A stretch of 64,000 nucleotides of DNA, taken from the NCBI RefSeq assembly GCF_030209835.1, contig NZ_JARVRF010000015.1, positions 62,001 to 126,000 on the forward strand. Direction: 5' to 3'. The stretch comes from Arthrobacter sp. efr-133-R2A-120. GTDB taxonomy: Bacteria; Actinomycetota; Actinomycetes; Actinomycetales; Micrococcaceae. Below, in pieces: positions 41,325 through 63,773 of this stretch (position 1 is its first letter; every line of letters begins with the position of its first letter). The position numbers and the translations under genes are program-made. The notes beneath the pieces are model-generated. The model did not search any database and was not told the DNA's origin. It worked only from the letters and a program-made list of their open reading frames with translations.

Positions 41325-41427
41325 CGAGTACCCGCAAACCGGGGCAGGGGTACTCACACCCGCATACGAGTATCCGGCCGGATGAAAGTCGAGTACTCAC
41401 TACTGGTGTGGGCCTGACGGCTAGCTG
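41325..41427 (+). promoter_or_regulatory. Promoter of regulators C-D with YACTC box and CGAGTA sites
   Basis: CGAGTA occurs at 41325, 41367 and 41390; the last forms CGAGTACTC. TACTCA (41394-41399) is followed after 22 bp by TAGCTG (41422-41427) as -10. The leader then has a G-run and GGTCTC (41462-41467) just before ATG 41472. Four other promoters in this window share the box-to-minus-10 spacing. Confidence 0.6.
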
Positions 41428-41471
41428 GTTAATTGGGGGGTGTCACCACTCGATCACTGGGGGTCTCGCTC

Positions 41472-44255
41472 ATGTTGACAGCAGGCAGTGCATCTACGGT
41501 CCATGCCGTTCGGTCCGGGGGATCCCGGTACCAGGCATTCGACGCATCCTCGGCTTCATCCGCACCTGACGGAACCGAGGGCAAGCCGGCGATTTCGACG
41601 GCCTGGCCGCCGATTGGACCTAGAGCCGCTGTTGAGGACATCGCCCTTGCGTTGGCAGCATCCAAAGGCGGGGTGCTCGTCACGGGTCCGTCGGGCAGCG
41701 GCAAGAGCTACTTGACTACTCGGGCGGTCAACGAACTACGCGGAAACTCATTCGTCGTCGTCATCCGCGGCAGCGCAGCATTGGCGAGATCACCTTACGG
41801 CGCCCTCAATATCCTTTTGAGCGATCTTGACCCCGGATACCTGGCCCATCCCGTCCTGGTGCTGTCGGCGCTCACCAACTTGCTCCGTGAACGCGCCGAG
41901 GGAAAGCCGGTGTACCTGGTTATTGAAAACGCGGCCGAGCTTGACGAGTTGGCGGCCATGACAGTGGCCCAACTCGCGAGGAACGGCACCGCGCAGCTTG
42001 TCCTCACCTGCACGGACCCGCAGCGGCTCTGCGGCGAGATCACACGGCTTTGCGGCGATGGGTTCTTGCACCGGATTGACCTCAAACCACTGACTTTCCA
42101 GGAATCGCATGCCTGGCTCGAGGCCGGGCTGGGGGCACAAGTCTCTCCTTCCGGTGCCCATGCCCTGTGGACCGCCAGCGGGGGAAACCCGCACTACCTC
42201 AAGATGCTCGCGGCGGAGCTCGCCGAATCCGGTTCGCTTCTGAAAAGCGATGGTGTCTGGGTCCTGACATCCCGGAACGAACTGCACGGCAGGGCAATCA
42301 CCGATCTCATCACCACGCGGCTTGGGCGGATGGGCGGCGGTGAGCGCAAAGTCCTGGAGATCCTTTCACTGGCCAGGGCGGTGCCCCTGGAATCCCTGCT
42401 GGCGCTCGCTTCGGCGGACGATGTGGATTCCCTTGAGAAAAGGAGCGTCCTCGTCGTCGACGATTCGCTGCCCAGGATGGCCCGCCTCCAAAGCCAGCTC
42501 GTGGGAGACGTGGTCCGGGCGAACGTTCCCCCCGGCCGTAGCAACGAACTACGGGGCCTGCTCCTTGAGTCGATGGATCCGGGCCTCGGCCAACGCTCCA
42601 TGCTGCTGTCCATGGCCTCTTGGGCATTGGACTGCGGAGCCAAGCTGGGAAGGGAAGAAGCGCTTGAAGCTGCTGCAGTGGCGAATCGGCAACTTGATGC
42701 GCGGCTGGCCCTGCGCCTGGTCCGGTCCATTCCAGGCCACTCCACGGTGCCCGGGGCAGTAGCCGAGGAAGCCCGTGCGTTGATGACGCTGGGGGATGCC
42801 GCCGGGGCCCGGGACGTGCTGAGGCAACACCAGGACGGATCCGGCGATGAAGCCAGCCTTGCCGAATGGGTCCGGCTCAAGCTGGCCGAGGCCTCGGTCC
42901 TTCTGGCCCTTCCCGAAACCACGGCGCAAGCTTGCGAGACGCTGGCACACGTCCGCCGGCGGCTGGAAGACGAAACGATCACGGCGGGTGAAGGTCAGGA
43001 CATCGCCACGCTTCGGGAGCAACTTGTCCTGGCCGAATCGCAGGCCGCCAGCTATTCGGGTTCCTACGCTGAGATGGCAGCAAGGCTGGAAGAGGTACTT
43101 CAAGATTTTGAATCGCACGGCACGGAGTTCCGCCTCCTCGCCGGAAGCTGGCTGTGCGAGGCATGGGCCCTGACGGGACGGCAATCCGAGGCGGCGGACA
43201 TGGCAGAACAGCTGACGGCTGACTGCCATGACCCCGCTGTTTCGGTCGCCGCGGCCCGGCGCGCCACATCGCGGCTGCGGTTCGCCTTCGTGCTTGCCGG
43301 ACGGTGGGACAAAGAGGCGGAAATGGTCCAGCCAGGCGATGAGCTCTTGGTCTCCGCGGCCGAGGTATTGCCCACGGCCATCGATCTTCCCAAAGCGATC
43401 TTCCGGTGCCTTCAGGGACGGGGCCAAGACGGCTTGGAGGCGCTCATTCCGGTGATTAGCCAGCTGCGGGTCCAGGACAATGAAGGCATGCTGGATGTCG
43501 CCTGCACGGCAGCGGCCTACGCCTCGGCCTTGCAAGGCGAGCACGAGCAGGCCCTGCGCTACCTGAAGGAAGCGTCCACCCAGCTGCGCCGGCCGACGTG
43601 GCGGAAGGAGCGGACGAAGAGGTATCTCGCGGCGTTGGCCCGGGATCGGATCAACGGCCCGGAGGCCGCCATCGAGGAGCTCCTCCGCTTGGCCGACGCC
43701 GACCGGGACGAGGGCGCCCCGGGTCACGAGATCTTTTGCCTCAGTTCGGCCGTCCGGCTTGGCGCGGTCGCAGCTGCTCCACGGCTGTTGGACTCGGCCC
43801 TCCGCTGCCAGGGACGATTCGCTGAACTGTGCGTTGCGTACGCACGGGCGACGATATCCGGTAGCGCCGAGCTTCTTCTCGAGGCAGCACGGTTGGCCGA
43901 AGACATGCAGAACGACAGGTTCGCCTTCGATATCGCCGAGACCGTGTTGCACCTGGACCAGGTTCAGCTGGACAAGACGGTCCTCAGGAAGGCGCGGCAA
44001 CTCGCGGAGACGTGCAGGCAGCGCCTGCGCACACCGCAAAGCGGTAACCAAGAGGGACTGAAGTTGACTTCCCGCGAGTTGGAGATCGCCAAGTTGGCGG
44101 CGAACCGGGAGAGCAACAAAAGTATTGCCGCGAAGCTCCATGTTTCAGTACGCACGGTGGAGGGGCATCTCTACCAGATCTTCGGCAAGCTGAAAATCGT
44201 GGAACGCTCCGAGCTGAGCTTCGCCCTTGGCAACGTCGAAGGTGGTGCGAAATGA
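41472..44255 (+). CDS. Large LuxR-type STAND ATPase regulator C (Walker B altered)
   Basis: 927 residues from ATG 41472, chosen because GGGGGT lies ahead and the leader matches two other promoters; an in-frame TTG at 41433 falls at the predicted transcription start. Walker A GPSGSGKS (72-79) is intact. The Walker B region VYLVIENAAELD (about 147-158) has Glu-Asn where Asp-Asp is usual. Helical repeats to ~860; HTH LTSRELEIAKLAANRESNKS, then SVRTVEGHLYQIFGKLKI. It overlaps gene D by ATGA. Its promoter carries the shared box, which suggests autoregulation within the cluster. Confidence 0.88.
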   Translation: MLTAGSASTVHAVRSGGSRYQAFDASSASSAPDGTEGKPAISTAWPPIGPRAAVEDIALALAASKGGVLVTGPSGSGKSYLTTRAVNELRGNSFVVVIRGSAALARSPYGALNILLSDLDPGYLAHPVLVLSALTNLLRERAEGKPVYLVIENAAELDELAAMTVAQLARNGTAQLVLTCTDPQRLCGEITRLCGDGFLHRIDLKPLTFQESHAWLEAGLGAQVSPSGAHALWTASGGNPHYLKMLAAELAESGSLLKSDGVWVLTSRNELHGRAITDLITTRLGRMGGGERKVLEILSLARAVPLESLLALASADDVDSLEKRSVLVVDDSLPRMARLQSQLVGDVVRANVPPGRSNELRGLLLESMDPGLGQRSMLLSMASWALDCGAKLGREEALEAAAVANRQLDARLALRLVRSIPGHSTVPGAVAEEARALMTLGDAAGARDVLRQHQDGSGDEASLAEWVRLKLAEASVLLALPETTAQACETLAHVRRRLEDETITAGEGQDIATLREQLVLAESQAASYSGSYAEMAARLEEVLQDFESHGTEFRLLAGSWLCEAWALTGRQSEAADMAEQLTADCHDPAVSVAAARRATSRLRFAFVLAGRWDKEAEMVQPGDELLVSAAEVLPTAIDLPKAIFRCLQGRGQDGLEALIPVISQLRVQDNEGMLDVACTAAAYASALQGEHEQALRYLKEASTQLRRPTWRKERTKRYLAALARDRINGPEAAIEELLRLADADRDEGAPGHEIFCLSSAVRLGAVAAAPRLLDSALRCQGRFAELCVAYARATISGSAELLLEAARLAEDMQNDRFAFDIAETVLHLDQVQLDKTVLRKARQLAETCRQRLRTPQSGNQEGLKLTSRELEIAKLAANRESNKSIAAKLHVSVRTVEGHLYQIFGKLKIVERSELSFALGNVEGGAK

Positions 44256-46933
44256 CTGAGGTGGTTTCGACCGATGCGCTCGTCGGACGATTCAGCGTGA
44301 TGGCAGCCGTTGTCGACTGCCTTCTCGATGTCAACGGCCCCGGGGTCCTGCTTTTCGGCGACGCGGGCATCGGCAAAACGGCACTGATTAATGAAGTGGT
44401 CCATGAATTGGGGCAACGTGTCCGCCCCTTCAGGGTCTTTGCCGGTCCCACCCTGGCCTCCGTGCCGTTTGCCGCCTTGGCGCCGCTGTTGACGGCTTTG
44501 ACCCCAAGCCAGATCAATGAACCGTTGTCAGTCCTCAGGGCCGTGGTAGCGGCGTTGAACCCGGCAGGCCAGCCCCATCCAGCACCCGCCGTCCTGATCG
44601 TGGAGGACGCACACCACATCGATGACAGCAGCGTGGCTGTCCTGGCGCAGTTGGCGGCGGCGGAAGCCGCCAAAGTCGTCTTCTTGTGCCGTCCGTATCC
44701 TGCGCCGCCAGCCGAGGTTTTCTCGATGTGGTCCGAGGGGCTCGTGGACCGATTCGACTTGCAGCCGCTCAACGAGCAGGAAGTTAACCAACTTTGCGCC
44801 CAGGCCTTGGAAGCGCCCGTCGTCCAGGGCACCAGCGCCGTCCTCTGCAAGTACTCCGGCGGAAACCCGATGTTCCTGCTGGAACTCATCGAGCACGCAA
44901 AGTCGCTGGGCCAGTTGGTCTGCCGCAACGACGCCTGGATGCTTTCGGGCGAGCTGCGGGGAACCAGCGTGCGCTTGATGGACCTCGTGCGGAACCAGAT
45001 CCTGATGCTGGGAGCCGCGCAGCGTGAGACCCTCGAGACCGTGGCATTGGCGGAGCCTGTCCCGCTGAACGTCGTACAACAGGCCTGCGACTCCAGTGCC
45101 GTGGATGAACTGCAGGAACTGCATTTCATCGAGATCGCGTCCGACCCCGCCCGGCACGTCCGGCTGGCGCAGCCGCTGGTTGGTGAAGTGATCCGCCAGC
45201 TGGTCCCGACCGCCCACAGCATGACCATCCGGCGGCGCATCGTGGAGCTCATGGGGGCCAAGCCGCAGACCATGGACGGACTGCTGCGCTTCGTCTCCTG
45301 GGGTTTGGAATCAGGCACCGAGGTTCCGGACTCCGACATCCTGGAAGCAGCCCAGCTGGCCAACCGCTTGTTCATCCCCAGCTACGTGGAACGGGTAGCC
45401 GGCGCGATCAAGGATCCTTCGCTGAGGCTGGCAGCCCAGGTGGAGGTGGCGCGGGCCAAATGGTACCGGGGCGACATCAGGGGATCGGTGTCCTCGCTTG
45501 CCGGAGTGGTGGACAGGACAAATGATCCGCGGACGGTCCGGCAGGCATCGATGTTGGCGGCCCAGCTTGCCGGGCGTCAAGGCGTCGGGCCGAACGCCAT
45601 CAAACAAGCAGCATACGAATGGGAGGCGGCCCTGGCCAGGCTCGCCGAATCCCGTCAGGGGATCGACCCTGGTGAACTGGAACGCGGGAAGCTGGGAAGC
45701 AGGCTCCTCTCGCTGGAAGGCCTCCAAGCCGAAGGCCACTACGTCGAGACAGAGCGTGAGCTTCGCCAGATCTGGAAGGAAACGGACGACGACGAGTCCC
45801 GCCTCGTGGCGGGCACCCTCCTCGCCGAGGCCCTGGCTGTCACAGGACGCCCGGTTTCCGCCATCCAGATCCTGATGGAAATACAGGAGATGGTTTCCAC
45901 AAGCGGCGACTGGAGCCTCCAGTACGCAGGAATGGTGATGCGCCGCTACATTCTGGCCTTGCACCAGGCAGGTGAGTTCGGCGTTCTTGAAACGTTCCTC
46001 AAGAACCATGTTTCGCAGGCACCGAACTCCCTGATCTATTCAGGCGGGATGCTGCACCTGGCCGCAGGAATGGTGGACCTGCGCAGGGGAGACCTGGGGG
46101 TGGCGCTGCCCCGGCTTCGCCAGGCGGTCAGCATGCTGCGGGTCTCCGACATGGGAAGCGACCTGCCCGACGCCGTTGCTGCCGCCGCCTACGCGGCGTC
46201 GATCCTGAAACGCCGGGACACGGCCATGACGTACTCAAGCGAGTACGACGCATTGATCCGGGAAGGCGTGCATCCGTCGCTGCTGGCGCAAGGTCATGCG
46301 GCCGTTGCGCGAGCCGAACATACCGGATCGCAGACGGCGATTGCGAGACTCATGTCCCTTGCCGATTCCGCGGCCGCGGACGGAGCGATCGGCGCCGAGA
46401 TCGACATCCTGATGTTGATCCTGAGGCTGGGAGACACGGGTGTGGCGCGTCGGCTGATAGCAGTAGCCGAGGGCAGCGAAGGCCGGACGGCTGAGTTTGC
46501 CCTGAGCGTCGGGCTTGCCCTTGCGCACAAGGACGCGGACCGCCTCATTGAGCTGAGTGAATCGGCCGCCAGGGACGGACTGGAGTTGGCCGCAGCTGAT
46601 TGCGCCGGCCACGCCCTGCGGATCCTGGAAAGCAGGGGTGACAAGGCGCGCCAGCTGGAGGGACAGCGACTCCTCAAGCGCCGCACCGCTGCCCTCGACA
46701 AGGCCGGCCCGGTCCTTGAGGGGGGTTCCCCGGATCTCCAGAAGCTGACCCGCCGCGAACAGGAAATTGCAACGCTCGTGCAGTCGGGTTCGAGCAACAA
46801 GGACATCGCGCTTAGCCTGGGCTTGTCATTGCGCACCGTTGAAGGTCATCTGTACCGAATGTTTGCCAAGCTTGGCATCAGCCACCGGGAAGATTTGATG
46901 AACGGTGCCCACGGCACGCAGGGCCTGGGCTAG
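44252..46933 (+). CDS. Large LuxR-type STAND ATPase regulator D (both Walker motifs intact)
   Basis: 893 residues. Walker A GDAGIGKT (36-43) and Walker B LIVEDAHHIDDSS (about 115-127) are both normal, making this the only one of the five relatives with a complete nucleotide site. Helical repeats to ~830; HTH LTRREQEIATLVQSGSSNKD, then SLRTVEGHLYRMFAKLGI. Translationally coupled to C by ATGA. I infer it could be the active ATPase partner of degenerate relatives. Confidence 0.88.
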   Translation: MTEVVSTDALVGRFSVMAAVVDCLLDVNGPGVLLFGDAGIGKTALINEVVHELGQRVRPFRVFAGPTLASVPFAALAPLLTALTPSQINEPLSVLRAVVAALNPAGQPHPAPAVLIVEDAHHIDDSSVAVLAQLAAAEAAKVVFLCRPYPAPPAEVFSMWSEGLVDRFDLQPLNEQEVNQLCAQALEAPVVQGTSAVLCKYSGGNPMFLLELIEHAKSLGQLVCRNDAWMLSGELRGTSVRLMDLVRNQILMLGAAQRETLETVALAEPVPLNVVQQACDSSAVDELQELHFIEIASDPARHVRLAQPLVGEVIRQLVPTAHSMTIRRRIVELMGAKPQTMDGLLRFVSWGLESGTEVPDSDILEAAQLANRLFIPSYVERVAGAIKDPSLRLAAQVEVARAKWYRGDIRGSVSSLAGVVDRTNDPRTVRQASMLAAQLAGRQGVGPNAIKQAAYEWEAALARLAESRQGIDPGELERGKLGSRLLSLEGLQAEGHYVETERELRQIWKETDDDESRLVAGTLLAEALAVTGRPVSAIQILMEIQEMVSTSGDWSLQYAGMVMRRYILALHQAGEFGVLETFLKNHVSQAPNSLIYSGGMLHLAAGMVDLRRGDLGVALPRLRQAVSMLRVSDMGSDLPDAVAAAAYAASILKRRDTAMTYSSEYDALIREGVHPSLLAQGHAAVARAEHTGSQTAIARLMSLADSAAADGAIGAEIDILMLILRLGDTGVARRLIAVAEGSEGRTAEFALSVGLALAHKDADRLIELSESAARDGLELAAADCAGHALRILESRGDKARQLEGQRLLKRRTAALDKAGPVLEGGSPDLQKLTRREQEIATLVQSGSSNKDIALSLGLSLRTVEGHLYRMFAKLGISHREDLMNGAHGTQGLG

Positions 46934-47032: not shown

Positions 47033-47153
47033 CGAGTACTAAATCGAGTGGTGAAAAGCGCCCGGACGGGTAGTCAATGGCCCCGGAAGGGGCCGCGCAT
47101 CCAAAGACGGGTATAGCCCACTCGCGCCCGCCCTAGGGGTTCGTTAATACGCT
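47033..47153 (+). promoter_or_regulatory. Promoter of the polysaccharide operon with YACTC box
   Basis: CGAGTA (47033-47038) and CGAGTG (47045-47050) lie upstream. AAAGACGGGTATAGCC (47103-47118) runs into CACTCG (47119-47124); 23 bp later comes TACGCT (47148-47153) as -10. The stretch AAAGACGGGTA-N-AGCC is repeated almost exactly at 54293-54308 before the second operon. A leader with GGTCTC (47192-47197) follows, 53 nt from -10 start to the first ATG. Confidence 0.65.
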
Positions 47154-47413: not shown

Positions 47414-47415
47414 CC

Positions 47416-48798
47416 ATGGCACCGAACACGAAGGTAAAGACCCTCAAGGCAGAGCCCAGCGGGAGCTCGCAGTCCTTGCACACGCAGGCCCCAGCTTGGC
47501 CGGAGGGCGCGGGAACACGGACAAGCACACAGGACCAGGCCTTTACTTTCGACGTGGCGATCGTGGGCATGGGCTATGTCGGCCTGCCCACGGCCTTGGC
47601 CATCAACGCCTCCGGCCGGCGCGTTCTGGGCCTCGACGTGTCCGATGCCCGCCTGGCCGTGATCCGCGAGCAACGGGCCGATCTCCTCGACTCGGACAAG
47701 GAGCGGCTCAGCAACGCACTCCTGGACCCGACCTTCATGCTGAGCAGCGATTTGTCGTTGCTTGCCCGCGCGGCGGCGGTGGTTGTGTGCGTTCCCACTC
47801 CCGTAGACGAGTACTTGGTCCCGGACCTTGGCATTCTCCGGGCGGCGTGTGCCTCGGTGGTCGATTTCGCCACCACTGGCCAGCTGCTGATGCTGACCTC
47901 TACAACGTACGTCGGATCCACCCGCGACCTTCTGGCTTTGCCCCTGGCTGCCAAGGGACTTATTCCGGGCCGCGATGTGTTCGTGGCCTTTTCACCCGAG
48001 CGCATCAACCCTGGCGTGGATTCGTTCTCCCACGAAGACGTTCCCCGGGTAGTCGGCGGCGTGACCCCGGCCTGCGGCGAAGTTGCCGAACGGCTTCTGA
48101 GCGCCAGCACCAAGCTGGTCCACGTTGTACCGTCGGCGGATGTCGCCGAAATGACCAAGCTGGTGGAGAACACCTTCCGGGCCGTCAATATCGCCTTGGC
48201 GAACGAATTCGCCGATATCTGCCACGAACTCAATATGGAGGTCATGGACGTTATCGATGCGGCTTCCACCAAGCCATATGGATTCATGGCGTTCACTCCC
48301 GGCCCTGGGGTCGGCGGACACTGCATACCGTGCGACCCCCACTACTTGCTGTGGCAATTACGCAAGGCCCGCTTGACGGCTCCGGTGATCGAGCAAGCGA
48401 TGGCCGGGATTGCAGGCAGGCCGCACCAGGTGGTGGAGAAGGCCCGGCGCATCCTGTCGGACCGCAATCACGGTGTTGCCGGTGCCCGCGTCATGGTGCT
48501 CGGAGTCGCGTACAAGCCCGATGTCGAAGATCTCCGGGAATCCCCGGCACTGGAGATCATCTCCGCCTTGATCGCCGACGGAGCGGAAGTGGCATTCTCC
48601 GATCCTTGGTGCCGGACGGCTCCGGATGGCCACGGCGGGACGCTCGAATCCGAGCAATCGCCTGCTGACTGGGGCGCGGATCTGGTGATCCTGCACACGA
48701 GGCACAGCCGGATGGAACTTGACTGGCTGGCCGGGGCATCAGCAGTCCTGGACACGACGTACCGCTTGCCCAAAGCCGACAACGTAACCCGGCTCTAG
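47416..48798 (+). CDS. Nucleotide-sugar dehydrogenase (UDP-ManNAc/UDP-Glc dehydrogenase family)
   Basis: 460 residues from ATG 47416, with GGGAGG 11 nt upstream. NAD-dependent four-electron oxidation of a UDP-hexose to the uronate. After ~45 linker residues come the Rossmann site VAIVGMGYVGLPTALAI, VVVCVPTPVDEYLVPDL, FSPERINPG, EMTKLVENTFRAVNIALANE, and the catalytic cysteine in GGHCIPCDPHYLLW; the third domain has GVAYKPDVEDLRESPALEI. FSPERINPG and the HCIPCDP site fit the UDP-N-acetylmannosamine (WecC-like) branch better than UDP-glucose, but the substrate is inferred. First large gene of the polysaccharide operon. Confidence 0.88.
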   Translation: MAPNTKVKTLKAEPSGSSQSLHTQAPAWPEGAGTRTSTQDQAFTFDVAIVGMGYVGLPTALAINASGRRVLGLDVSDARLAVIREQRADLLDSDKERLSNALLDPTFMLSSDLSLLARAAAVVVCVPTPVDEYLVPDLGILRAACASVVDFATTGQLLMLTSTTYVGSTRDLLALPLAAKGLIPGRDVFVAFSPERINPGVDSFSHEDVPRVVGGVTPACGEVAERLLSASTKLVHVVPSADVAEMTKLVENTFRAVNIALANEFADICHELNMEVMDVIDAASTKPYGFMAFTPGPGVGGHCIPCDPHYLLWQLRKARLTAPVIEQAMAGIAGRPHQVVEKARRILSDRNHGVAGARVMVLGVAYKPDVEDLRESPALEIISALIADGAEVAFSDPWCRTAPDGHGGTLESEQSPADWGADLVILHTRHSRMELDWLAGASAVLDTTYRLPKADNVTRL

Positions 48799-48829
48799 AT
48801 CCACCAGGTTTTCGACGGAAGCAGGAGTA

Positions 48830-49834
48830 ATGAAAACAGCAATCACCGGCGGTGCCGGTTTCATAGGAAGCCACCTTGTTGAGCACTTGTTGGCAGCCGG
48901 GGACGAAGTCGCCGTGCTGGACAACTTGTCGACCGGACGCTTGGAGAATCTCAAGGGCGTCATCGGCCACAGGAACTTCCATTTCGTCGAGGGCACCATT
49001 CTCGACCGGGATGCGGTGGACAGGGTCGTGGCGGGTGCCGACAGGGTCTTCCATCTGGCCGCCGCTGTTGGGGTGAACTTGATTGTCGACCACCCGTTGG
49101 AGAGCCTCCGCACGAATATCCATGGCACCGAAGTGGTCCTGGACGCGGTCCTGGAATCAGGTGCCTCAATCTTGCTGGCGTCCACAAGCGAGATCTACGG
49201 CAAGAACACCTCGGACAGCCTCTCGGAGGAAGCGGACCGCATCCTGGGATCCGCGCTCAAATCCCGGTGGACCTACGCTGCGGCCAAGGGCATTGACGAG
49301 GCATTTGCCCATGCATACTGGCGCCAATTCGGGTTGCCGGTTGCCATCGTGCGGCTCTTCAACACAGTAGGCCCGCGGCAGACGGGCCGCTATGGAATGG
49401 TTGTTCCGCGACTTGTGCGGCAGGCGCTCCTCGGTGAGCCCCTGACGGTATACGGAGACGGCCACCAGACGAGGTGCTTCTCCTACGTGGGCGATATCGT
49501 TCCCGCCATCGTCCGCATTTCCGAGGAGCCGCTTGCCTACGGAAATGCCTACAACCTCGGCGGCAGTTACGAGATTTCAATCCTGACGTTGGCCGAAAGG
49601 ATCGTTGAACTCCTTGGGAGCGGCAGCGCCATCACCTTGGTGCCCTATGAGCAGGCGTACTCGGAAGGCTACGAGGACATGCGCCGGCGGGTTCCGGACA
49701 ACAGCAAGTCTTTCGGGCTTGTTGGCTTCGAGCCGAAGACCACCTTGGATGAAATCATCCTCAACGTCGCGGCCGACTACAAGCCGGCAAAAGTCCTGGA
49801 TCCCGCACGTTGGAAGATCACCCTCGCGTCTTGA
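48830..49834 (+). CDS. NAD-dependent nucleotide-sugar epimerase/dehydratase (extended SDR)
   Basis: 334 residues, 31 bp after the dehydrogenase, with AGCAGGAG upstream. TGGAGFIGSHLVEHLL is the extended-SDR dinucleotide site; the catalytic pair is in the Tyr-x3-Lys of RWTYAAAKGIDEAF, with ASTSEIYGKN before it. GPRQTGRYGMVVPRLV and YGDGHQTRCFSYVGD are shared with UDP-glucuronate decarboxylases and 4-epimerases. Acting after the dehydrogenase, it would interconvert or decarboxylate the UDP-uronate. Confidence 0.85.
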   Translation: MKTAITGGAGFIGSHLVEHLLAAGDEVAVLDNLSTGRLENLKGVIGHRNFHFVEGTILDRDAVDRVVAGADRVFHLAAAVGVNLIVDHPLESLRTNIHGTEVVLDAVLESGASILLASTSEIYGKNTSDSLSEEADRILGSALKSRWTYAAAKGIDEAFAHAYWRQFGLPVAIVRLFNTVGPRQTGRYGMVVPRLVRQALLGEPLTVYGDGHQTRCFSYVGDIVPAIVRISEEPLAYGNAYNLGGSYEISILTLAERIVELLGSGSAITLVPYEQAYSEGYEDMRRRVPDNSKSFGLVGFEPKTTLDEIILNVAADYKPAKVLDPARWKITLAS

Positions 49835-49928
49835 TGCGGGCCAGAACAAGCCGTGCCGACTGAAGCGGCGTCGTTCGACTGAAGTCGTTCAAGTGAAGAA
49901 GTACCGTGAAGAGAAAGGCTGAGTGCAA

Positions 49929-51884
49929 ATGAAACGAATCTGGGGGGCGTCTTTGTCTCAACCTCGCCACAGGGCCGAACGCTTGAGCCCCAAGGGAAAG
50001 TCGCGTTGGCTCGCAGGCGTTCTGAGCGTCCTGATGTCAACGTCTGTCTTTGGGATAGCGGTACCGGCCGCCCACGCGGCGCCGAACACCATCATTACCC
50101 TGACTTTCGACGACGCCAACGCAGATCAGATTCCCGCTGCGGCTATCCTCAAAAGCAACGGGCTCAAGGGCACGTTCTTTACGCCGTCGGGCTTCCTCAA
50201 CGCTCCGGGCTACATGACAACCCAGGAAGCACTGGCGTTGCAGGCGGACGGAAACGAGATCGGCGGCCACACAGTCACCCACCCGGACCTGGCCCAAATG
50301 GGTGCGGACGAGGTCACACGCCAGATCTGCAATGACAGGGTCAATCTCACCAACATGGGATTCACCAACGTCACCAACTTCGCGTACCCCTTCGCTTCCC
50401 TGACCCCGGCAGTGGAAACCACCGTCGCCGCCTGCGGATACAACAGCGCCCGCGGGCTCGGTGACCTGGAAAGCAAGGTGCCCGGAAGCGCAGGGCTGGG
50501 ATTCGCTGAGACCCTTCCTCCCGCTGATCCTTATGACACAAAGGCCCCGGACGAAGTGGACAACACCTGGACGTTGACCGACCTGCAGAACCTGGTCACC
50601 AAGGCCGAGCCCGGCGGCGGCTGGGTGCAGGTGACGTTCCACCACATCGGTACCGGTATCGATCCAACGTCAGGAATCGCGGATCCCCTGACGGTTTCCA
50701 CCGCGCTCTTCACCCAGTATGTACAGTGGCTCGCCGCGGAGAAGGCCGCCGGGCGGATCGCCGTCCAGACGGTCCAGGAGACGCTTGGCGGAGCCGTCAA
50801 ACCCGTTGTCGCCGGGCCGCCCGCACCGCCTCCCGTCACCGCGGGGAACCTCGTCAAGAATGCGAGCATGGAAACCGCTGGGCCGGTAGCTTCGGGACTG
50901 CCGCAATGCTGGGCCCAGGGCAACTACGGCAGCCACACTTCGGCCTTCACCACGGTAACCCCCGGGCATGGAGGCACCACCGGGACCCATGCCGAGCAGC
51001 TCGTGATGTCGGCCTATGTCAGCGGGGACGCCAAGCTAGTGCCAACCCTCGACCTGGGCGAGTGCGCGCCAAGTGCGACTCCCGGCCACACCTATGAGAT
51101 GAAAGCCTGGTACACCTCGACGACGACGACCCAATTCGAACTGTATTACCGCACGGGGCTGGGAACGTGGACGTATTGGACCGCTAGCCCGTATTTCCCG
51201 GCGTCGACCGCATGGGCACACGCTACGTGGACCTCGCCCGCGCTTCCAGTGGGTGCTTCGGCCGTCAGCATGGGCTTGAACCTGCTCGGCAACGGCACCT
51301 TGATCACGGACGACTTTGAACTCTATGACAGTGCAGGTATAAAGCACTTCATAGACGTCACTCCTACCACGGCGTTCTATGAGGAAATCAGTTGGCTGTC
51401 GAACAACTTGATTTCGCAAGGTTGGCCTGACAACACCTACCGTCCCCTCACGTCAATCACCCGCGAAGCCATGGCAGCGTTCCTCTACCGTTTCTCCGGA
51501 AGCCCTGTAGTGCCGGCGAACGCGCCCACGTTCTCCGATGTGCCAGCCGGCGCTCCGTTCTACAACGAGATCCGTTGGCTGGCATCCACAGGCATCACCA
51601 CGGGGTACCCGGACGGAACCTACCACCCAGGTGAGGCCGTCAGCCGGGCCGCGATGGCCGCGTTCCTCTATCGTCTCAAGGGCCGTCCCTCTGTGCCGGC
51701 GAACGCACCAACCTTCTCCGATGTGCCGGCCGGCGCTCCGTTCTACAACGAGATCCGTTGGCTGGCATCCACAGGCATCACTACCGGCTTCCCTGACGGC
51801 ACGTACAGGCCAACCACCGCAATCAACCGTGACGCCATGGCTGCCTTCTTGTACCGCTACAACATTGATTTCCCGAAGGGTTGA
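49929..51884 (+). CDS. Secreted polysaccharide deacetylase with carbohydrate-binding region and three SLH domains
   Basis: 651 residues from ATG 49929 (AAAGG about 10 nt upstream; GTG 49923 is an alternative). Signal peptide ends near residue 50 (VPAAHA). NodB-type deacetylase: TFDDANA (59-65) with base and metal Asp, HTVTH (114-118) with both metal histidines, FAYPF, and TFHHIG late in the domain. Residues ~300-460 are a beta-rich, probably carbohydrate-binding region (GLGTWTYWTASPYF). Three SLH domains (about 470-650) would attach it to a cell-wall polymer. It would de-N-acetylate a surface glycan in place. 94 bp downstream of the epimerase. Confidence 0.88.
   Translation: MKRIWGASLSQPRHRAERLSPKGKSRWLAGVLSVLMSTSVFGIAVPAAHAAPNTIITLTFDDANADQIPAAAILKSNGLKGTFFTPSGFLNAPGYMTTQEALALQADGNEIGGHTVTHPDLAQMGADEVTRQICNDRVNLTNMGFTNVTNFAYPFASLTPAVETTVAACGYNSARGLGDLESKVPGSAGLGFAETLPPADPYDTKAPDEVDNTWTLTDLQNLVTKAEPGGGWVQVTFHHIGTGIDPTSGIADPLTVSTALFTQYVQWLAAEKAAGRIAVQTVQETLGGAVKPVVAGPPAPPPVTAGNLVKNASMETAGPVASGLPQCWAQGNYGSHTSAFTTVTPGHGGTTGTHAEQLVMSAYVSGDAKLVPTLDLGECAPSATPGHTYEMKAWYTSTTTTQFELYYRTGLGTWTYWTASPYFPASTAWAHATWTSPALPVGASAVSMGLNLLGNGTLITDDFELYDSAGIKHFIDVTPTTAFYEEISWLSNNLISQGWPDNTYRPLTSITREAMAAFLYRFSGSPVVPANAPTFSDVPAGAPFYNEIRWLASTGITTGYPDGTYHPGEAVSRAAMAAFLYRLKGRPSVPANAPTFSDVPAGAPFYNEIRWLASTGITTGFPDGTYRPTTAINRDAMAAFLYRYNIDFPKG
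51510..51783 (+). repeat. Near-identical 90-bp SLH-encoding repeats (183-bp period)
   Basis: Segments starting at 51510 and 51693 share about 90 nearly identical bases, including TCTACAACGAGATCCGTTGG. The period of 61 codons equals one SLH domain. The DNA identity indicates a recent duplication or gene conversion of the second and third SLH domains. Confidence 0.85.
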
Positions 51885-54659: not shown

Positions 54660-56068
54660 GTCCCCGGGTGAAGGGCATCGCATCCGGCCCGGTCCGCACT
54701 TCGAGGAAGCGGGCAGGTCTATGGGCTGCCTCGTGGGTGTCGGTGTTGCTCTTGTTGACGGGCGCAACATCGCTGATCAACGGAAGCCAAGCTCCCGTCG
54801 GTGGGTCCGCGAACAATACCCCCACACCTTCTATCGCCCCGCTCTCTTCTGTCAGCTTGACGTTCGATGCGGGCCGGGCGAGCCAGATGGAGGCGGCCCG
54901 GATCCTGAAGGACCACGGACTCCGGGGCACCTTTTTCATCGACTCGGGCTTTGTTGGCGCACCTGACTACATGACAACGGACAATCTCCATAGCCTGGCC
55001 GCGGACCAGAATGAAATCGGTGGCCACACAGTCACCCTTGCCGATGTGACCTCCGTAGAACCCGATGAAGCGTCGAGACAGATTTGCAACGATCGGGTGA
55101 ACCTCACGGACTGGGGCTTTAAGGTCACTTCCTTTGCCTATCCGTTTGCGGCTTCAACGCCGAAATCGGAGGAACTGGTCGCCGGATGCGGCTACAACAG
55201 CGCGCGAGGCCTCGGCGAGATCAGCACTCCTGTTGACTGCGTCGGCTGCGCGGCAGCAGAAACTGTCCGCCCCGCCGACTTGTTCCGGACGCGGGCGACC
55301 TCGGAGGTCGGCAGCAAATGGACGTTGGCCGACCTTGAGGCGACCGTAGCGCAAGCCGAAAAGGCCGGCGGCTGGTTACAACTGACCTTCTACGACATCG
55401 ACAACAGCGGCAGTCCCCGCTCCATCAGCCCCGCGTTGTTCGAACAGTTCGCCACCTGGCTGGCGGCCAAGACCCAACCAGGGACGATGGCCGTGCGCAC
55501 GGTACACGACGTGATCGGCGGCGTGGCGAAACCCGTGGTGAACGGTCCCGTGGCCGCTCCGGCAGCACCGGGACAGAACGCCATTCGGAATCCGGGGCTC
55601 GAAACTGCTGGAAAGTACGGCTTGCCGCAATGCTGGCAGGTGTCGTCCTACGGCAAGAACGCCGTCGTTCTGAGCACTTTGACTCCAGGTCGCACCGGTG
55701 CGGTGGCCCGTCGCCTGGACGTGACCGAATACGCCTCCGGTGACGCCAAATTGCTTCCCGTCCTCGATCTCGGAGCATGCGCTCCGAGCGTGAGTGCAGG
55801 CCACAGCTATTCGCTCAGGGCGTGGTACCAGTCCAACGCGAAGACCCAATTTGAAGTCTATTACCGCAACAAGCTGGGCACGTGGACCTATTGGACAGCC
55901 AGTCCGTGGTTCACGGCCAACACCAGTTACGAGCAGGCGATCTGGGAAACGCCGCCCGTTCCGGCAGGAGCCGAGGCCATCAGCTTTGGAATGAACCTCT
56001 TCAGTGATGGCCAGCTTGCTACCGACGATTACGAAATGTACGACACTGTGGGAGCACCGTCGCCGTGA
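54656..56068 (+). CDS. Polysaccharide deacetylase-like protein with lost metal-binding site (probable pseudoenzyme)
   Basis: 470 residues from ATG 54656. N-terminal membrane segment (about residues 23-42). It is a paralogue of the SLH-anchored deacetylase (same GTFF, NEIGGHTVT, RQICNDRVNLT and FAYPF stretches, then the same carbohydrate-binding-like region with GTWTYWTASPWF), but lacks SLH domains. The metal site is lost: TFDD is TFDA (69-72), HTVTH is HTVTL (124-128), and TFHHIG is TFYDID. I infer a glycan-binding or assembly subunit. The stop overlaps the synthase start by GTGA. Confidence 0.85.
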   Translation: MSPRVKGIASGPVRTSRKRAGLWAASWVSVLLLLTGATSLINGSQAPVGGSANNTPTPSIAPLSSVSLTFDAGRASQMEAARILKDHGLRGTFFIDSGFVGAPDYMTTDNLHSLAADQNEIGGHTVTLADVTSVEPDEASRQICNDRVNLTDWGFKVTSFAYPFAASTPKSEELVAGCGYNSARGLGEISTPVDCVGCAAAETVRPADLFRTRATSEVGSKWTLADLEATVAQAEKAGGWLQLTFYDIDNSGSPRSISPALFEQFATWLAAKTQPGTMAVRTVHDVIGGVAKPVVNGPVAAPAAPGQNAIRNPGLETAGKYGLPQCWQVSSYGKNAVVLSTLTPGRTGAVARRLDVTEYASGDAKLLPVLDLGACAPSVSAGHSYSLRAWYQSNAKTQFEVYYRNKLGTWTYWTASPWFTANTSYEQAIWETPPVPAGAEAISFGMNLFSDGQLATDDYEMYDTVGAPSP

Positions 56069-57444
56069 TAGTTCTTTCGATCTTTTTGGTTCTGGGAGTC
56101 AGCACGATCTTTTGGTCTCTTGCCGGGCTGGTCCGTCTCGCGGGTGAGGAGTCGTGGCGGGCCCGGGAATTGTCCTTCCGGATCCGCGGGTGGATCGCCT
56201 TGCTGCGCGGCGTCAACGCGCCGATCCCTCGACGTCAACGCGCCCGCCATCGCGCAAAGGGAGTGCGGATCTCCCCGGCGAATGTCGCGGTCCTCATGGC
56301 CGCCCACAACGAGGCTTTGGTCATCAGCGAGACAATCCTTGCCGCGTCCGCTTTAGTCCCTCGACGCAACATCCACGTCGTTTCGGACATGTCCACCGAT
56401 GACACTGCGGCCATTGCGCGGGCCGCCAGGGTGAAGGTCCTTGACCTGGAACCGAACCGTGGCAAGGCAGGTGCACTCGCGGCGGGCATCGCCCATTTCG
56501 ATCTGTGCAGGCGGTTCAAGGTGGTCATGCTCCTGGACGCAGACACCCGCCCGATGCCGGATTATCTCGAAACGGGGCTCCCGCTCTTTGACGACCCCGC
56601 GGTGGTCGCCGTCGCGGGACGGGCCAAGTCAATCATGAGCCCGGCACCTCCGACGGCGATGGGCCGCTTCCTTGTGGCCTACCGGGAGCGTTTGTACATC
56701 GCGGTCCAACTCCTGCTCAAGTACGGCCAGGCAGCCCAGGGTGCCAATGTCGTCTCCATCGTGCCTGGATTTGCCAGCATGTACAGAACCAGCGCGCTCG
56801 CGAAAATAGAGGTCTTGGCGCCCGGACTGGTGATCGAAGACTTCAACATGACGTTTGAAATCCATGCAAAAAAGCTGGGACGGATCGCATTCCATCCCTC
56901 GGCCGCTGTTGCGTACACCCAGGATCCGGACAATCTGAAGGACTACATCAAGCAGGTGCGGCGGTGGATACTCGGTTTCTGGCAGACCGTCAGGCGGCAC
57001 GGCCTGCAGTTCAGCCGATTCTGGTTTGTCCTGGGTTTGTACATTGTTGAACTCGTAGCCAGCTGCCTCTTCTTCGTGCTTCTGGTGCCGGCTTTCCTGC
57101 TATCGTCCCTCGCTGCTGTCGAGGTGTGGATTTTTGGCAATCGATCGGACGTTTTTGTCTTTCTGTCGGGTGTCCTGCGGCCCCAGGACGTCCTCATTGG
57201 GGTCTTCCTGCCGGACCTTTTCCTGACAGTCCTTGCCGCAGTTTCGATGCGCAACCCGCGTTTTCTGTTGATGGCGCCCCTGTTTCCGCTGATGCGGATC
57301 CTGGACGCAGTCATCTGCCTCCAGGTCCTGCCCAGGGCGTACTCGTCGAGTTCGTCGGGAGTGTGGGTCAGCCCGGTCCGGAGGATCCAGCGCCAACCCC
57401 AGGAAGTCTCGACGCCGGGGCCTTCCGTCGTGCGGACGGGCTAG
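56065..57444 (+). CDS. Processive GT2 glycosyltransferase (polysaccharide synthase)
   Basis: 459 residues from GTG 56065, overlapping the pseudo-deacetylase stop. An N-terminal membrane segment, then the GT-A domain: VLMAAHNEALVISETI, LLDADTRPMPDY (DxD), VPGFASMYR, LVIEDFNMTFEI (catalytic ED) and QVRRWILGFW (QxxRW of processive synthases), then three to four membrane segments (about 315-345, 355-380, 395-435). Relatives include NodC, PgaC, hyaluronan and cellulose synthases. It would polymerise a beta-linked, probably N-acetylhexosamine-containing chain while exporting it; the sugar is inferred from the deacetylase and GH18 neighbours. Confidence 0.88.
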   Translation: MIVLSIFLVLGVSTIFWSLAGLVRLAGEESWRARELSFRIRGWIALLRGVNAPIPRRQRARHRAKGVRISPANVAVLMAAHNEALVISETILAASALVPRRNIHVVSDMSTDDTAAIARAARVKVLDLEPNRGKAGALAAGIAHFDLCRRFKVVMLLDADTRPMPDYLETGLPLFDDPAVVAVAGRAKSIMSPAPPTAMGRFLVAYRERLYIAVQLLLKYGQAAQGANVVSIVPGFASMYRTSALAKIEVLAPGLVIEDFNMTFEIHAKKLGRIAFHPSAAVAYTQDPDNLKDYIKQVRRWILGFWQTVRRHGLQFSRFWFVLGLYIVELVASCLFFVLLVPAFLLSSLAAVEVWIFGNRSDVFVFLSGVLRPQDVLIGVFLPDLFLTVLAAVSMRNPRFLLMAPLFPLMRILDAVICLQVLPRAYSSSSSGVWVSPVRRIQRQPQEVSTPGPSVVRTG

Positions 57445-58649: not shown

Positions 58650-58984
58650 ATTTTGGGTGACATATCTGTTGGGGACATAGACATACGAGACCTGGGCAAT
58701 GGGTAAGGCGATCTGCGGCCGAACGCGCCGCAGCGTCGTACACGGCCAAATGGTGTGTCACGACAGAGTGGTTACGAAAATCGGCTGCGCTTCAACTCCC
58801 CAGAAGTAGCCAGCCGGAACTTACTCTTGCGGCACCAGCTTACACAGTTAGATCACAGGGTGGTAACAGCGGATGCAAATTCGGCGAAGGAACCGGCCTG
58901 GAAACGACGCCTTGGCACTTCGCCTGGAGGCCCCGTGGAGCGGGGATATTCCGCGCTAGTAGCCCCGGAAAACCAAGTAGTTAC
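58650..58984. other. Divergent spacer between double-psi gene and regulator E
   Basis: No gene is supported. It holds CACTCT on the minus strand (58770-58765) with a poor -10 match 24 bp on, and GGTTAC/GGTAAC motifs near 58771 and 58862. These are weak. Confidence 0.35.
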
Positions 58985-59018
58985 CACTCAATTCAGGGCT
59001 GAAACCCGGAGGTAACGT
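58985..59018 (+). promoter_or_regulatory. Promoter of regulator E with YACTC box
   Basis: CACTCA (58985-58990), exactly 22 bp, then TAACGT (59013-59018) as -10. The leader to ATG 59091 is about 70 nt and lacks the GGTCTC element. Confidence 0.6.
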
Positions 59019-59090: not shown

Positions 59091-61745
59091 ATGGACGAAA
59101 CCGAAGGGACCCACACCTCGCCCCCGATTATTCGGGCAGCCGAGCTCCAGGAGATTGTCATTGCCTTGTCAGGGCCGGAACCGGCCGGGATAGTCATCTC
59201 GGGACCGGGCGGCTCCGGAATGACCACCCTCTTGGACGCCGCGGCTTCAGTGCTGGGCGGGTCCTTTAGCGTAATCGCCCACAACGTCTCGGAGTCATTC
59301 GCGGACATTCCTTTTGGAATCGCCATGGCGCTTGTTCCGGACCTGCCGGCCAGGGCCAAGGTGTGGCCGGGTTCCATCGTGGCAGCTTGCCGCAAAGCAA
59401 TACGTGGGGCTGCGACATCCGGATCCGCCGCCTTGCTGGTGCTGGACAACATCGATTTCCTGGATGACATGTCCCTTTGGCTCCTGAGCCAATTGCTTGT
59501 TGAACCGGACATCCGCCTGATTGCCACACACCGCTCGGACCGGCCCTTGAGGATGGAACTCATGGAGTCCGTGGTTTCACGGCAGCTTGCCGTTGTGACG
59601 CTGGATGATCTTACGGAGCAGCAGCTCCGCGAATTCCTTGATGATCGCCTCGGCGGGCGTGCTGCCCGCAGCCTGGTCCGGGACATCCATGCCCTCACCG
59701 GAGGAAACCTGCAGACCGCGAAGTTGCTGGTGGACGAAGCCGCGGCGCGTGGCGAGATCGTGGAGCAGGCTGATTCCTGGATATTGTCCGGGCCGATCCG
59801 CCTGGACGGTTCGCAAGCGCTCGAGCTGACCCGCCACCGGCTTGAGGGCTATTCCGTGCCGCAGCGGCAGGTCGTGGACATTCTGGCGGTGGGGGAGCCC
59901 ATACCGCTGGCAGTCCTTGACCAACTTGTCCAAAAGCGGGCGATCGAAGCGCTGCGGGCCGACGGAACGATCCGTGTCCAGAAAGACAGCCAGGAGACGG
60001 CAACGCTCAGCCACGCCATCGAGGGAAGGCTGGCCCGGCAGCAGCTGGGAGCTGCACGGATCCTCGAACTACGCCGGAGCATCTACGCGTCGTTTTCACC
60101 CGTTGCCGATGACTCGCTCTGGACGCTGTTCCGTCGCGTGGACCTCGAACAGGCGAGTGGTTTGCCGGTGCCCGACGCCGATCTTTTGGCCGTGGCCATT
60201 GCCGCAAACGACATTCACGACAATCGGAGGGCCCGGCGGTCCGCGGAAGCGGTGCAGGCGCCGGAACTCGGGCTGGTTGCAGGTGTGGAACTGGCAAGGG
60301 CGCTCTACCAAACAAGGGATTTCTCCGGGGCGGTCAGGGTCCTGAAGGGTTTGGTGGCGAACACCCCCGACGTCCTGACTCTGGACTTCGCCCACGCGGT
60401 ATGGCTCCTGCTGCATGCGCTTTTGCCGACATCGCCCGGGGCCAGTGTGCTGCAGGCGGTCCTCCAGGATGCCCGACGGCGGCTGGAGGCTGCCGCCGTC
60501 GGAATCCAGCCGGGCGGGGAGGCCCATCGTGACCATTCGGCCGTCCGGGACGAACTGGATGTTCTCCAGCTGTATCTGGATGCGCAGAACGGCACCTGGC
60601 CTTCAGCCAGCGGTGAGCTGTTCCAAAGGCTTAGCCATAGCCAATTGGTCGATCCTGGATTGCGTACGGAGCGCCATCCACCACCGCCTACCCAGGCTGG
60701 CGTGCTGTTGATGGCCCTCGTATCCCAAGGGCTGGCCGTCAGCGGACGGTTCGCGGACGCCGTCGCCCTTTCGACGCTGGCCCTCGAAGCCGTGGGGCGG
60801 CTGCCACGGTGCCCCGTGGACTTCCACTCCACGGTGCTGACCATCCACGGGTCCAATCTGATCTGGCGCGGGCAATGGGGCGGCCCCGAAATGTTCTGCG
60901 CCGGCAGTTCCAGCTACAGCAACCGGATGAGCTATTTCGGCGGCTCCGCCCACCTTTACAGGGCGCTCGTCCTCGCCAGGCAGGGGAGCCTGGAACTGGC
61001 GTGTGAACAATTCCGCCAGGCCAAGGCCCGGCTCGATGAAGCCGACCCCGACGGGCTCCTGCCACCGGCCCTCGGAGGACTTGCCGCGGCTGCGTGGTTG
61101 CTGGGCGATGTCAACCAGGTACGTCGCGCGTTGGCGGCCTACGACTCGCGGGCCAGCGGCGGGAACTATCTCGCCTCGCAGCTCGCCGAAAGCTATTCGT
61201 CCGCCGCCCGGTCAGTGCTGGTTGGCGCGGAACACTCGCACCGGAAACTGCTCCAACTTGCCGGTTCTGCCGCCAAGAAGGGACACCGGGCCCTCGAAAT
61301 GTTGAATCTCGGCCTGGCTGCCCGCACAGGCAGCCGGGGATACAGGCAGCTGGGAGCGGGAGTGTCCGAACTGGTGTGGAGCGTCGAGTCCGGCATACCG
61401 TCGGGACAGGAAGCAGGACAGGAAATGGGAACAGGGCAAGTCAGCACGGGGGAATCTCAGCAAGCGTTCGACCAGGAGGAAGCGTTCGCTTTTGACGAGC
61501 CCCACCCGGTCGGTCCGGAGACCGGGTCCTCGGTCCTTCCCGGCATTGTCAAGCTTTCACAGCGTGAACGGGAAGTCACCGCCTTGGTGGCCTCCGGGCT
61601 GAGCAGTGCTGAGGTGGCTGCTCGATTGGGTATTGCGGTGAACACGGTCAACGCCCACCTGCAGCGGGTTTACGGCAAGCTCGGGGTTTCGCGCAGGCAG
61701 AAGCTCTCCGAACTGTGGGACGAGTTGGCGAAGCCGGAGGAGTAG
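59091..61745 (+). CDS. Large LuxR-type STAND ATPase regulator E (Walker A lysine replaced by Met)
   Basis: 884 residues from ATG 59091, with CAGGA upstream. Walker A GPGGSGMT (38-45) has Met in place of Lys; Walker B LLVLDNIDFLDDM (about 115-127) keeps the Asp. Helical region to ~815; HTH LSQREREVTALVASGLSSAE, then AVNTVNAHLQRVYGKLGV, differs from the TVEGHLY of A-D at the recognition helix, so it may read another site. It lies at the far end of the polysaccharide locus and has the shared promoter box. Confidence 0.88.
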   Translation: MDETEGTHTSPPIIRAAELQEIVIALSGPEPAGIVISGPGGSGMTTLLDAAASVLGGSFSVIAHNVSESFADIPFGIAMALVPDLPARAKVWPGSIVAACRKAIRGAATSGSAALLVLDNIDFLDDMSLWLLSQLLVEPDIRLIATHRSDRPLRMELMESVVSRQLAVVTLDDLTEQQLREFLDDRLGGRAARSLVRDIHALTGGNLQTAKLLVDEAAARGEIVEQADSWILSGPIRLDGSQALELTRHRLEGYSVPQRQVVDILAVGEPIPLAVLDQLVQKRAIEALRADGTIRVQKDSQETATLSHAIEGRLARQQLGAARILELRRSIYASFSPVADDSLWTLFRRVDLEQASGLPVPDADLLAVAIAANDIHDNRRARRSAEAVQAPELGLVAGVELARALYQTRDFSGAVRVLKGLVANTPDVLTLDFAHAVWLLLHALLPTSPGASVLQAVLQDARRRLEAAAVGIQPGGEAHRDHSAVRDELDVLQLYLDAQNGTWPSASGELFQRLSHSQLVDPGLRTERHPPPPTQAGVLLMALVSQGLAVSGRFADAVALSTLALEAVGRLPRCPVDFHSTVLTIHGSNLIWRGQWGGPEMFCAGSSSYSNRMSYFGGSAHLYRALVLARQGSLELACEQFRQAKARLDEADPDGLLPPALGGLAAAAWLLGDVNQVRRALAAYDSRASGGNYLASQLAESYSSAARSVLVGAEHSHRKLLQLAGSAAKKGHRALEMLNLGLAARTGSRGYRQLGAGVSELVWSVESGIPSGQEAGQEMGTGQVSTGESQQAFDQEEAFAFDEPHPVGPETGSSVLPGIVKLSQREREVTALVASGLSSAEVAARLGIAVNTVNAHLQRVYGKLGVSRRQKLSELWDELAKPEE

Positions 61746-63202: not shown

Positions 63203-63711
63203 GCGGCCTGGATTCCTTGTACCAGCAGCTGATCCTGGAGCACTCCAAGACCCGCAGCGGTGGAGACCTCGCCAAGCTTCCGGCCGCGGCAACGGGCACT
63301 CCCGGCCCGGGACAGGGCGGAACGGGACAGAGCCACCAGCTCAATCCCATTTGCGGGGACGAAATCACCCTCCGGCTGAGTCTCGGCACTGACGGTGACG
63401 GACAGGCTGTCACGGAGATCCATTGGGACGGTGACGGCTGTGCCATTTCGATGGCCTCCGCGTCCATCCTCAGTGAAATGGCACCGGGCATGTCCCCGAC
63501 GTCCCTTCGCCACACGATCGATCACTTCCGGGAATTGATGCGTTCGCGCGGCAAGCTGGAAGCGGATGAGGAACTGCTGCAGGACGCTGCCGCCCTGGCC
63601 GGGGTTGCCAAGTATCCTGCCCGGGTAAAGTGCGCCATGCTCGCATGGGTTGCCGCGGAGGACGCGCTGCGCCAAGCCGAGGCGGGCCAAGGGGTGTCCC
63701 AGGCTCTCTAA
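63199..63711 (+). CDS. sufU: SufU-type iron-sulfur assembly/zinc-dependent sulfurtransferase protein
   Basis: 170 residues, the ATG overlapping the sufS stop. LYQQLILEHSKTRSGG at the start, then cysteines in NPICGDEITL, DGDGCAISMASASILSEM and PARVKCAMLAW: the three conserved SufU cysteines with the adjacent Asp. It takes sulfur from SufS. An insertion of Gly/Thr-rich residues lies at about 30-48. The translation overlap fits a dedicated pair. Confidence 0.93.
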   Translation: MSGLDSLYQQLILEHSKTRSGGDLAKLPAAATGTPGPGQGGTGQSHQLNPICGDEITLRLSLGTDGDGQAVTEIHWDGDGCAISMASASILSEMAPGMSPTSLRHTIDHFRELMRSRGKLEADEELLQDAAALAGVAKYPARVKCAMLAWVAAEDALRQAEAGQGVSQAL

Positions 63712-63713
63712 CG

Positions 63714-63773
63714 CGGGTAGCCCGAGGTCGAGTAGCGTCCACTCTATTTCGGGCTCCGGGCCGGACTTAGCCT
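63714..63773 (+). promoter_or_regulatory. YACTC-box promoter of the 45-residue membrane protein
   Basis: CGGGTAGCC (63714-63722) and CGAGTA (63729-63734) are followed by CACTCT (63740-63745), 22 bp, and TAGCCT (63768-63773) as -10. The -10 ends 6 nt before ATG 63780, so the transcript is leaderless. Confidence 0.6.

Follow-up and report, generated by a model that had tools for sequence, protein, structure and literature searches.

The window analyzed here is a 64,000-nucleotide stretch of Arthrobacter sp. efr-133-R2A-120 (contig NZ_JARVRF010000015.1, positions 62,001 to 126,000 of the forward strand). It encodes five regulators of the LuxR family (A to E), which belong to the LAL class (large ATP-binding regulators of the LuxR family), together with two polysaccharide operons and a small membrane protein. 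The promoters of C-D, of E, of both operons and of the small membrane protein share an element, the 15-bp inverted repeat RRGTA-N5-YACTC, which occurs in the window at 47109, 54299, 58975 and 63730 and is followed at a fixed distance by a TANNNT -10. This element is quite probably the operator of a cell-surface regulon in the Arthrobacter family, which regulators A to D, with their common recognition helix RTVEGHLY, would bind and activate. The regulators and the five promoter sites are as follows.

35802..38522, + strand: LuxR/LAL regulator A, recognition helix RTVEGHLY
38500..41259, + strand: LuxR/LAL regulator B, RTVEGHLY
41391..41405, + strand: site 1 operator GAGTA-CTCAC-TACTG, promoter of LuxR regulators C and D
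41429..41434, + strand: site 1 -10 TTAATT, in place of TAGCTG
41472..44255, + strand: LuxR/LAL regulator C, RTVEGHLY, Walker A present; the start is a conserved ATG
44252..46933, + strand: LuxR/LAL regulator D, RTVEGHLY, Walker A present
47109..47123, + strand: site 2 operator GGGTA-TAGCC-CACTC, polysaccharide operon 1
47148..47153, + strand: site 2 -10 TACGCT
54299..54313, + strand: site 3 operator GGGTA-GAGCC-TACTC, polysaccharide operon 2
54337..54342, + strand: site 3 -10 TACGCT
58975..58989, + strand: site 4 operator AAGTA-GTTAC-CACTC, regulator E
59013..59018, + strand: site 4 -10 TAACGT
59091..61745, + strand: LuxR/LAL regulator E, helix NTVNAHLQ; a target
63730..63744, + strand: site 5 operator GAGTA-GCGTC-CACTC, 45-amino-acid membrane protein
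63768..63773, + strand: site 5 -10 TAGCCT, with an ATG 6 nt further on; predicted leaderless

A preliminary description of this DNA reported that five spacers share a YACTC box and a -10-like hexamer 22-23 bp after the six-letter box, and on re-reading all five carry the quoted sequences at the quoted spacings. The box itself is real, but its left arm had been overlooked, YACTC being the right arm of RRGTA-N5-YACTC. Counted from the end of the repeat, the distance to the first base of TANNNT becomes 23 bp at sites 3-5 and 24 bp at site 2. The upstream block common to sites 2 and 3, AAAGACGGGTA, which had also been pointed out, corresponds to the left flank and left arm of the operator. This flank often reads AA(A/G)(A/T)C, and the hexamers before the repeat at sites 2-5 are AAAGAC, AAAACC or GAGGTC. 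Among family sites, the last base of the spacer is C in 31 of 38, and GTG is frequent directly after the repeat. There is no conserved -35 at these promoters. With the first base of the -10 set to -12, which makes the start points predicted ones, the repeat is centered at -43 (-44 at site 2), with arm centers 10 bp apart; it thus occupies a fixed place over the -35 region, close to the lux-box value of -42.5.

While sites 2-5 of the five-site pattern stand as described, site 1 had been read in the wrong register. The arrangement TACTCA-22-TAGCTG is a chance one, as TAGCTG is present in only 6 of 18 relatives, whereas the repeat GAGTA-N5-TACTG is kept in all 18 of the genomes searched (L076 was left out), each of which also encodes regulator C. 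In the corrected register, site 1 reads AAAGTC-GAGTA-CTCAC-TACTG with TTAATT at 23 bp, and the relatives have their -10 at exactly this distance, as TTAATT in 17 cases and TTAGTT in one. Several additional GAGTA/TACTC half-sites lie upstream of site 1 (window 41310-41380) and are shared by L141, L146 and L148, the close relatives shown in this orientation; they may form an autoregulatory array. At site 4, an ATG 6 nt after the -10 opens a short frame ahead of regulator E (window 59025-59080), possibly a leaderless leader peptide, which is not conserved in L066 or L068.

The arrangement is strongly conserved among relatives. Regulator E as a query retrieved 19 loci in Arthrobacter and Pseudarthrobacter, in which TANNNT is found at 23 or 24 bp in 60 of 61 plus-strand repeats, a count that excludes six minus-strand readings of palindromes; the single exception (L063:15108) has no TANNNT. 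An alignment of 42 out of the 60 (A1, 61 columns) has as invariant columns C10, GTA at 13-15, ACTC at 22-25 and, within the -10, three positions, namely its first T, its A and its last T. In the interval from the box to the -10, no column of A1 is invariant or reaches 90%, nor is there a conserved -35 at 16-19 bp ahead of the -10, where an alternative sigma factor would be expected to have one. At site 5, an ATG lies 5-6 nt past the -10 in all 17 copies found (the window and 16 relatives), with no copy seen in three of the 19 relatives' loci, and the first T of TANNNT lies 12 bp from the ATG in 16 copies and 11 bp in one. Leaderless genes of high-GC bacteria show this same spacing (PMC3160421), which supports both the -10 and the predicted start point of site 5.

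The fixed spacing also distinguishes the repeat in the organism's own genome (5.12 Mb in 81 contigs). Of its 32 copies of RRGTA-N5-YACTC, 15 have TANNNT at offset 23 or 24, and the other 88 offsets in the range 0-89 together account for only 7. Without the four window sites that had suggested the pattern, the count at 23/24 is 11 of 28. An open reading frame with third-position GC (GC3) above 0.72 is overlapped by 1 of 13 sites with the -10 and by 7 of 15 sites without it, L024, L025 and two window sites having been left out of this count. The 17 repeats that lack the -10 were not taken as members, with those on contigs C1, C20 and C52 named as possible ones. Conversely, the copies on C5 and C37 may be chance ones despite their -10; the C5 copy adjoins a downstream ABM-like protein, whose match lies below the Pfam cut-off. 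At the end of contig C52 (L107, 18517-18531) there is a perfect palindrome with a good score in the second sequence model described below (R2) and TTCAAT at 24, without TANNNT, standing before a possible membrane protein.

A genome-wide scan with a model of the sites had been proposed in the preliminary description. Two models were used: R1, built from relatives' copies of these promoters only, and R2, which additionally includes likely members beyond the window. The top R1 matches in the genome are window sites 2-5 (E 1e-8 to 6e-8), which is unsurprising because R1 was trained on their orthologues; further promoters follow. Outside the training set, R1 matches the promoters of a polysaccharide deacetylase with SLH domains (5.5e-6) and of a predicted leaderless small membrane protein (2.3e-4). 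The pattern first described is real, and the regulon reaches far beyond the window. Within the window, the genes behind the sites, apart from the regulators, are the following.

47416..52784, + strand: polysaccharide operon 1, encoding a UDP-sugar dehydrogenase, a sugar epimerase, a polysaccharide deacetylase with SLH domains and a protein without Pfam family
54650..57444, + strand: polysaccharide operon 2, encoding a polysaccharide deacetylase and a family 2 glycosyltransferase
63780..63917, + strand: 45-amino-acid membrane protein (by reading), the predicted leaderless target of site 5

Beyond the window, likely members were named from R1, the offset test and R2 combined. They include three polysaccharide deacetylases with signal-like starts (L094, L104 and L106), of which that of L094 has SLH domains and those of L104 and L106 have none; the L106 deacetylase is truncated by the contig end and has a sub-threshold fn3 match. 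Another likely member is an operon starting with a GFO/IDH/MocA oxidoreductase (L098), followed by genes that, by reading only, are epimerase-like and aminotransferase-like. Secreted-looking proteins are found on L096, where a LAL-like gene (by reading) lies two genes downstream, and on L102, and L095 encodes a predicted leaderless small membrane protein. Finally, three related small proteins starting (M/V)DG-x-x-WIW are each encoded behind an operator copy.

L100:3738-3980: (M/V)DG-x-x-WIW protein
L101:5457-5897, minus strand: (M/V)DG-x-x-WIW protein
L105, downstream of 5380: (M/V)DG-x-x-WIW protein

By reading, each of the three has one membrane helix, and neither Pfam nor NCBIfam gives a match above cut-off for the two that were scanned (L100 and L101). 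The L101 protein and a lipoprotein-like protein on L103 sit behind copies without TANNNT. Taken together, the theme of the regulon is the cell surface.

Regulators A to E are 884-940 amino acids long, and all five have a GerE domain above the Pfam cut-off. The ATPase part is less uniform: AAA_16 is above cut-off, with a P-loop, in C and D, while E scores 31.9, just under the cut-off of 32.6, B has a weak AAA match and A has none. Only D and E were scanned against NCBIfam; both match its MalT and AbsR2 models, with scores far short of the curated cut-offs. Apart from a designed repeat protein, the solved structures most similar to the GerE domain of D are the response regulator in entries 4wt0, 4wuh and 4wul, which we take to be LiaR, and EsrB, VpsT and VraR. 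Three base-reading positions of the recognition helix, assigned after the contacts of NarL, are E, G and Y in regulators A to D and N, A and Q in E, so regulator E should read a different sequence. Regulator E was thus set aside as a reader of the box, and its helix suggests that it is probably a target one step down. A search with E as the query, scoring at most 7 candidates per genome, yields LAL-like matches in 41 of the family's 120 genomes, and these do not tell relatives of E apart from the remaining LALs.

The distribution of the element among genomes follows that of the RTVEGHLY helix. The family searched, which we take to be the Micrococcaceae from the named relatives Arthrobacter and Pseudarthrobacter, was sampled with 120 genomes, in which R1 hits were accepted up to E 0.01 and RTVEGHLY was searched as encoding DNA. 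The helix occurs in 62 of the 120 genomes, its reversed control in none, and R1 sites in 20. All 20 R1-positive genomes encode RTVEGHLY, compared to 42 of the 100 others (Fisher 3.8e-7, a genome-level test in which related genomes are not independent). The association persists at the genus level, with RTVEGHLY in 10/10 R1-positive genera versus 19/32 overall (p 0.0014). Another LuxR helix used as control, RTVENHL, occurs in 4 of the 120 genomes and in none of the 20 R1-positive ones.

Helix and element also often lie close together in the genome. In other genomes, an RTVEGHLY gene lies within 10 kb of 16 of 30 R1 sites, where 0.24 would be expected, and perfect CGAGTA-N5-TACTC repeats are near such a gene in 11 of 53 cases (0.29 expected). 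Thirty regions of other genomes were examined, 28 for their R1 hits and two for LAL matches; they contain 42 repeats on the two strands together, 24 of them with a -10 at 23/24. In L120, L129, L134, L138 and L139, which represent three other genera, repeat and -10 lie directly upstream of a LAL gene with RTVEGHLY; only L134 and L138 of these five sites are R1 hits. A wider sample of the order comprised 297 genomes, 24 from the family and 273 others. R2 hits were obtained in 11 of the 24 family genomes, four of which (G000, G006, G031 and G063) had contributed sequences to R2, and in 1 of the 273 others, while RTVEGHLY occurs in 16 and 2, respectively. All 11 R2-positive family genomes are among the 16 with the helix. 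The sole R2 hit outside the family (G259, E 0.0016 over 297 genomes) is in a genome without RTVEGHLY and is probably due to chance. In the order sample, motif and helix are thus nearly confined to the Arthrobacter family.

At the level of sequence, the box, its fixed -10 spacing, its conservation, the neighboring genes and the co-distribution and co-location with RTVEGHLY regulators point to a regulon whose promoters have an activator box where the -35 would be. This was one of the two options given in the preliminary description, and it is well supported by spacing, conservation and co-location. That the regulators bind the box, that they activate and do not repress, where transcription starts and which signals are sensed are matters of inference. 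In the proposed mechanism, dimers of the RTVEGHLY LALs A to D would bind RRGTA-N5-YACTC about 43 bp upstream of the transcription start, stand in for the missing -35 and recruit housekeeping RNA polymerase to TANNNT, corresponding to class II activation. The LALs would drive two of their own genes, C and D, through site 1, and additionally LAL E with its different helix, operons for the synthesis and modification of surface polysaccharides, and small membrane proteins. A possible but still tentative extension is that several paralogous LALs, different in their sensing bodies but identical in their recognition helix, act through one operator code that is peculiar to the Arthrobacter family. They would form a many-input gate that restructures the cell surface through deacetylases, some with SLH domains, sugar operons and small membrane proteins, with a cascade via E.

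Several observations weigh against the proposal that A to D act through this operator. By itself, the repeat shows no enrichment in the genome, with 32 matches compared to 46 for its reversed control, and neither does the form preceded by AAC with up to 2 mismatches (259 versus 484 reversed controls); box counts were therefore dropped as evidence and gained weight only in combination with the -10 spacing. In four otherwise good copies of the genome (site 1, C1, C20 and C52), TANNNT is replaced by TT-x-A-x-T, which in C1, C20 and C52 sits at offset 23 or 24, as in site 1. Most members beyond the window are on contigs other than that of A to D. A clear Walker A motif is present only in C and D, and A, B and E contain no P-loop by pattern. 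In other genomes, 14 of 30 R1 sites have no RTVEGHLY gene within 10 kb, nor within 15 kb, and where the two are linked, the linkage could reflect a surface-polysaccharide locus instead of the regulator. Finally, 42 of the 62 genomes with RTVEGHLY give no R1 hit at E 0.01. Three of these (G009, G032 and G058) become positive with R2, indicating that the sensitivity of R1 is limited, and the missing hits are perhaps due to strict filters and to the fit of the model to close relatives.

A merely accidental resemblance of high-GC spacers would be in keeping with a bare repeat no commoner than its reversed control, but the concentration of the -10 at one offset (15/32, against 7 elsewhere) and the conservation in relatives refute it, leaving it virtually no probability. 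The preliminary description had further left open a promoter for an alternative sigma factor that would use YACTC as -35 and TANNNT as -10, to which the fixed distance between the two would be well suited. Sigma factors usually have 16-19 bp between -35 and -10, whereas here 23-24 bp separate the -10 from the end of the box, at about -36. Such a promoter is very unlikely also given that the box forms an inverted repeat whose left arm and flank are conserved, that perfect palindromes are present in several genera, that no intervening column is invariant and that the -10, TANNNT, is of the ordinary type known from actinobacterial promoters (PMC3160421). The inverted repeat centered at -43, the lack of a -35 and the ordinary -10 instead favor class II activation by a LuxR-family protein, so of the two options the activator is retained.

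If the LALs bound at -43 kept the genes off, the operator would be that of a repressor. Repressor sites are usually variable in position, and a fixed -10 spacing without a conserved -35 is what would be expected of activation, making repression as improbable as the sigma factor, or slightly more so. A precedent for it does exist in the Streptomyces LAL SCO6993, a repressor that binds short palindromes (PMC9628970). The strongest competitor, though it too is unlikely, is a real operator bound by a different regulator that resides in the same genomes. Co-occurrence is not binding, and the 14 distant sites among the 30 in other genomes would agree with this explanation. However, the LALs are the sole DNA-binding proteins by Pfam among the 15 window proteins scanned, which are part of the open reading frames of the cluster, operator copies stand at LAL promoters in several genera, and helix and motif share the same taxonomic limits. 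Activation by the RTVEGHLY LALs would also offer a possible reason for the presence of several LALs side by side in one genome. Sequence alone thus yields a testable operator, a matching recognition helix and a target list, so that surface regulation in these common soil bacteria can be tested directly.

Among known systems, the closest in layout are the lux box and related LuxR-TraR operators of Proteobacteria, which, like the operator here, are inverted repeats just upstream that replace the -35, and which are read by a dimer with the GerE helix-turn-helix, the type of reader proposed here. The lux box has CTGTA/TACAG arms with a spacer of 6, GTA...TAC on the inner side and a center at about -42.5. 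The operator here differs in its arms (GAGTA/TACTC) and its spacer of 5, and its LALs of about 900 amino acids are unlike the LuxR-type acyl-homoserine-lactone receptors, which have about 250. The operator may work like a lux box, but it is not one. The LuxR dimer binds a 20-bp inverted repeat (PMC9628970). MalT, the prototype LAL with an ATPase and a C-terminal GerE domain (PMC6099782), has as its box the short motif GGA[TG]GA (PMC9628970), in contrast to the inverted repeat of the operator here.

SCO6993 of Streptomyces coelicolor resembles the regulators here in being a LAL that binds palindromes, its own promoter included (PMC9628970), although it is a repressor of antibiotic regulators. 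Its authors report that a consensus site could not be predicted (PMC9628970), whereas one consensus here fits many promoters of the genome and the family. The Rhodococcus LAL activator TpdR has promoter repeats over the -35 (PMC6099782), as proposed here for another actinobacterial LAL activator. It differs in serving a single catabolic operon, in its 15-nt direct repeats and in its chemical inducer. A further comparison is with the GerE domains of NarL, LiaR, VraR and VpsT, the last three being among the solved structures closest to that of D. These are two-component or c-di-GMP regulators, and the NarL heptamer TACYYMT resembles the YACTC arm, but the NarL arms are oriented in the opposite way, with TAC outside.

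Palindromic operators that cover the -35 and serve a LuxR-family activator are already known, and LAL regulators are large and common in actinobacteria. What appears to be new is a LAL operator that holds throughout a genome and its family and that four paralogues apparently share; the passages of the LAL literature consulted name no genome-wide LAL operator. No description of this operator or regulon was found in openly licensed literature, in line with the preliminary description, whose author knew of no named regulon with such a signature.

Between regulator E and site 5, the window contains a class-V aminotransferase, presumably cysteine-desulfurase-like, and a protein that by reading is SufU-like (61868-63711), a pair that makes for odd neighbors of surface genes. 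Outside the window, contig C4 of genome G308 carries at about 67000-95000 an apparent syntenic copy of the cluster, whose four RTVEGHLY genes and five R2 sites are ordered as they are here.

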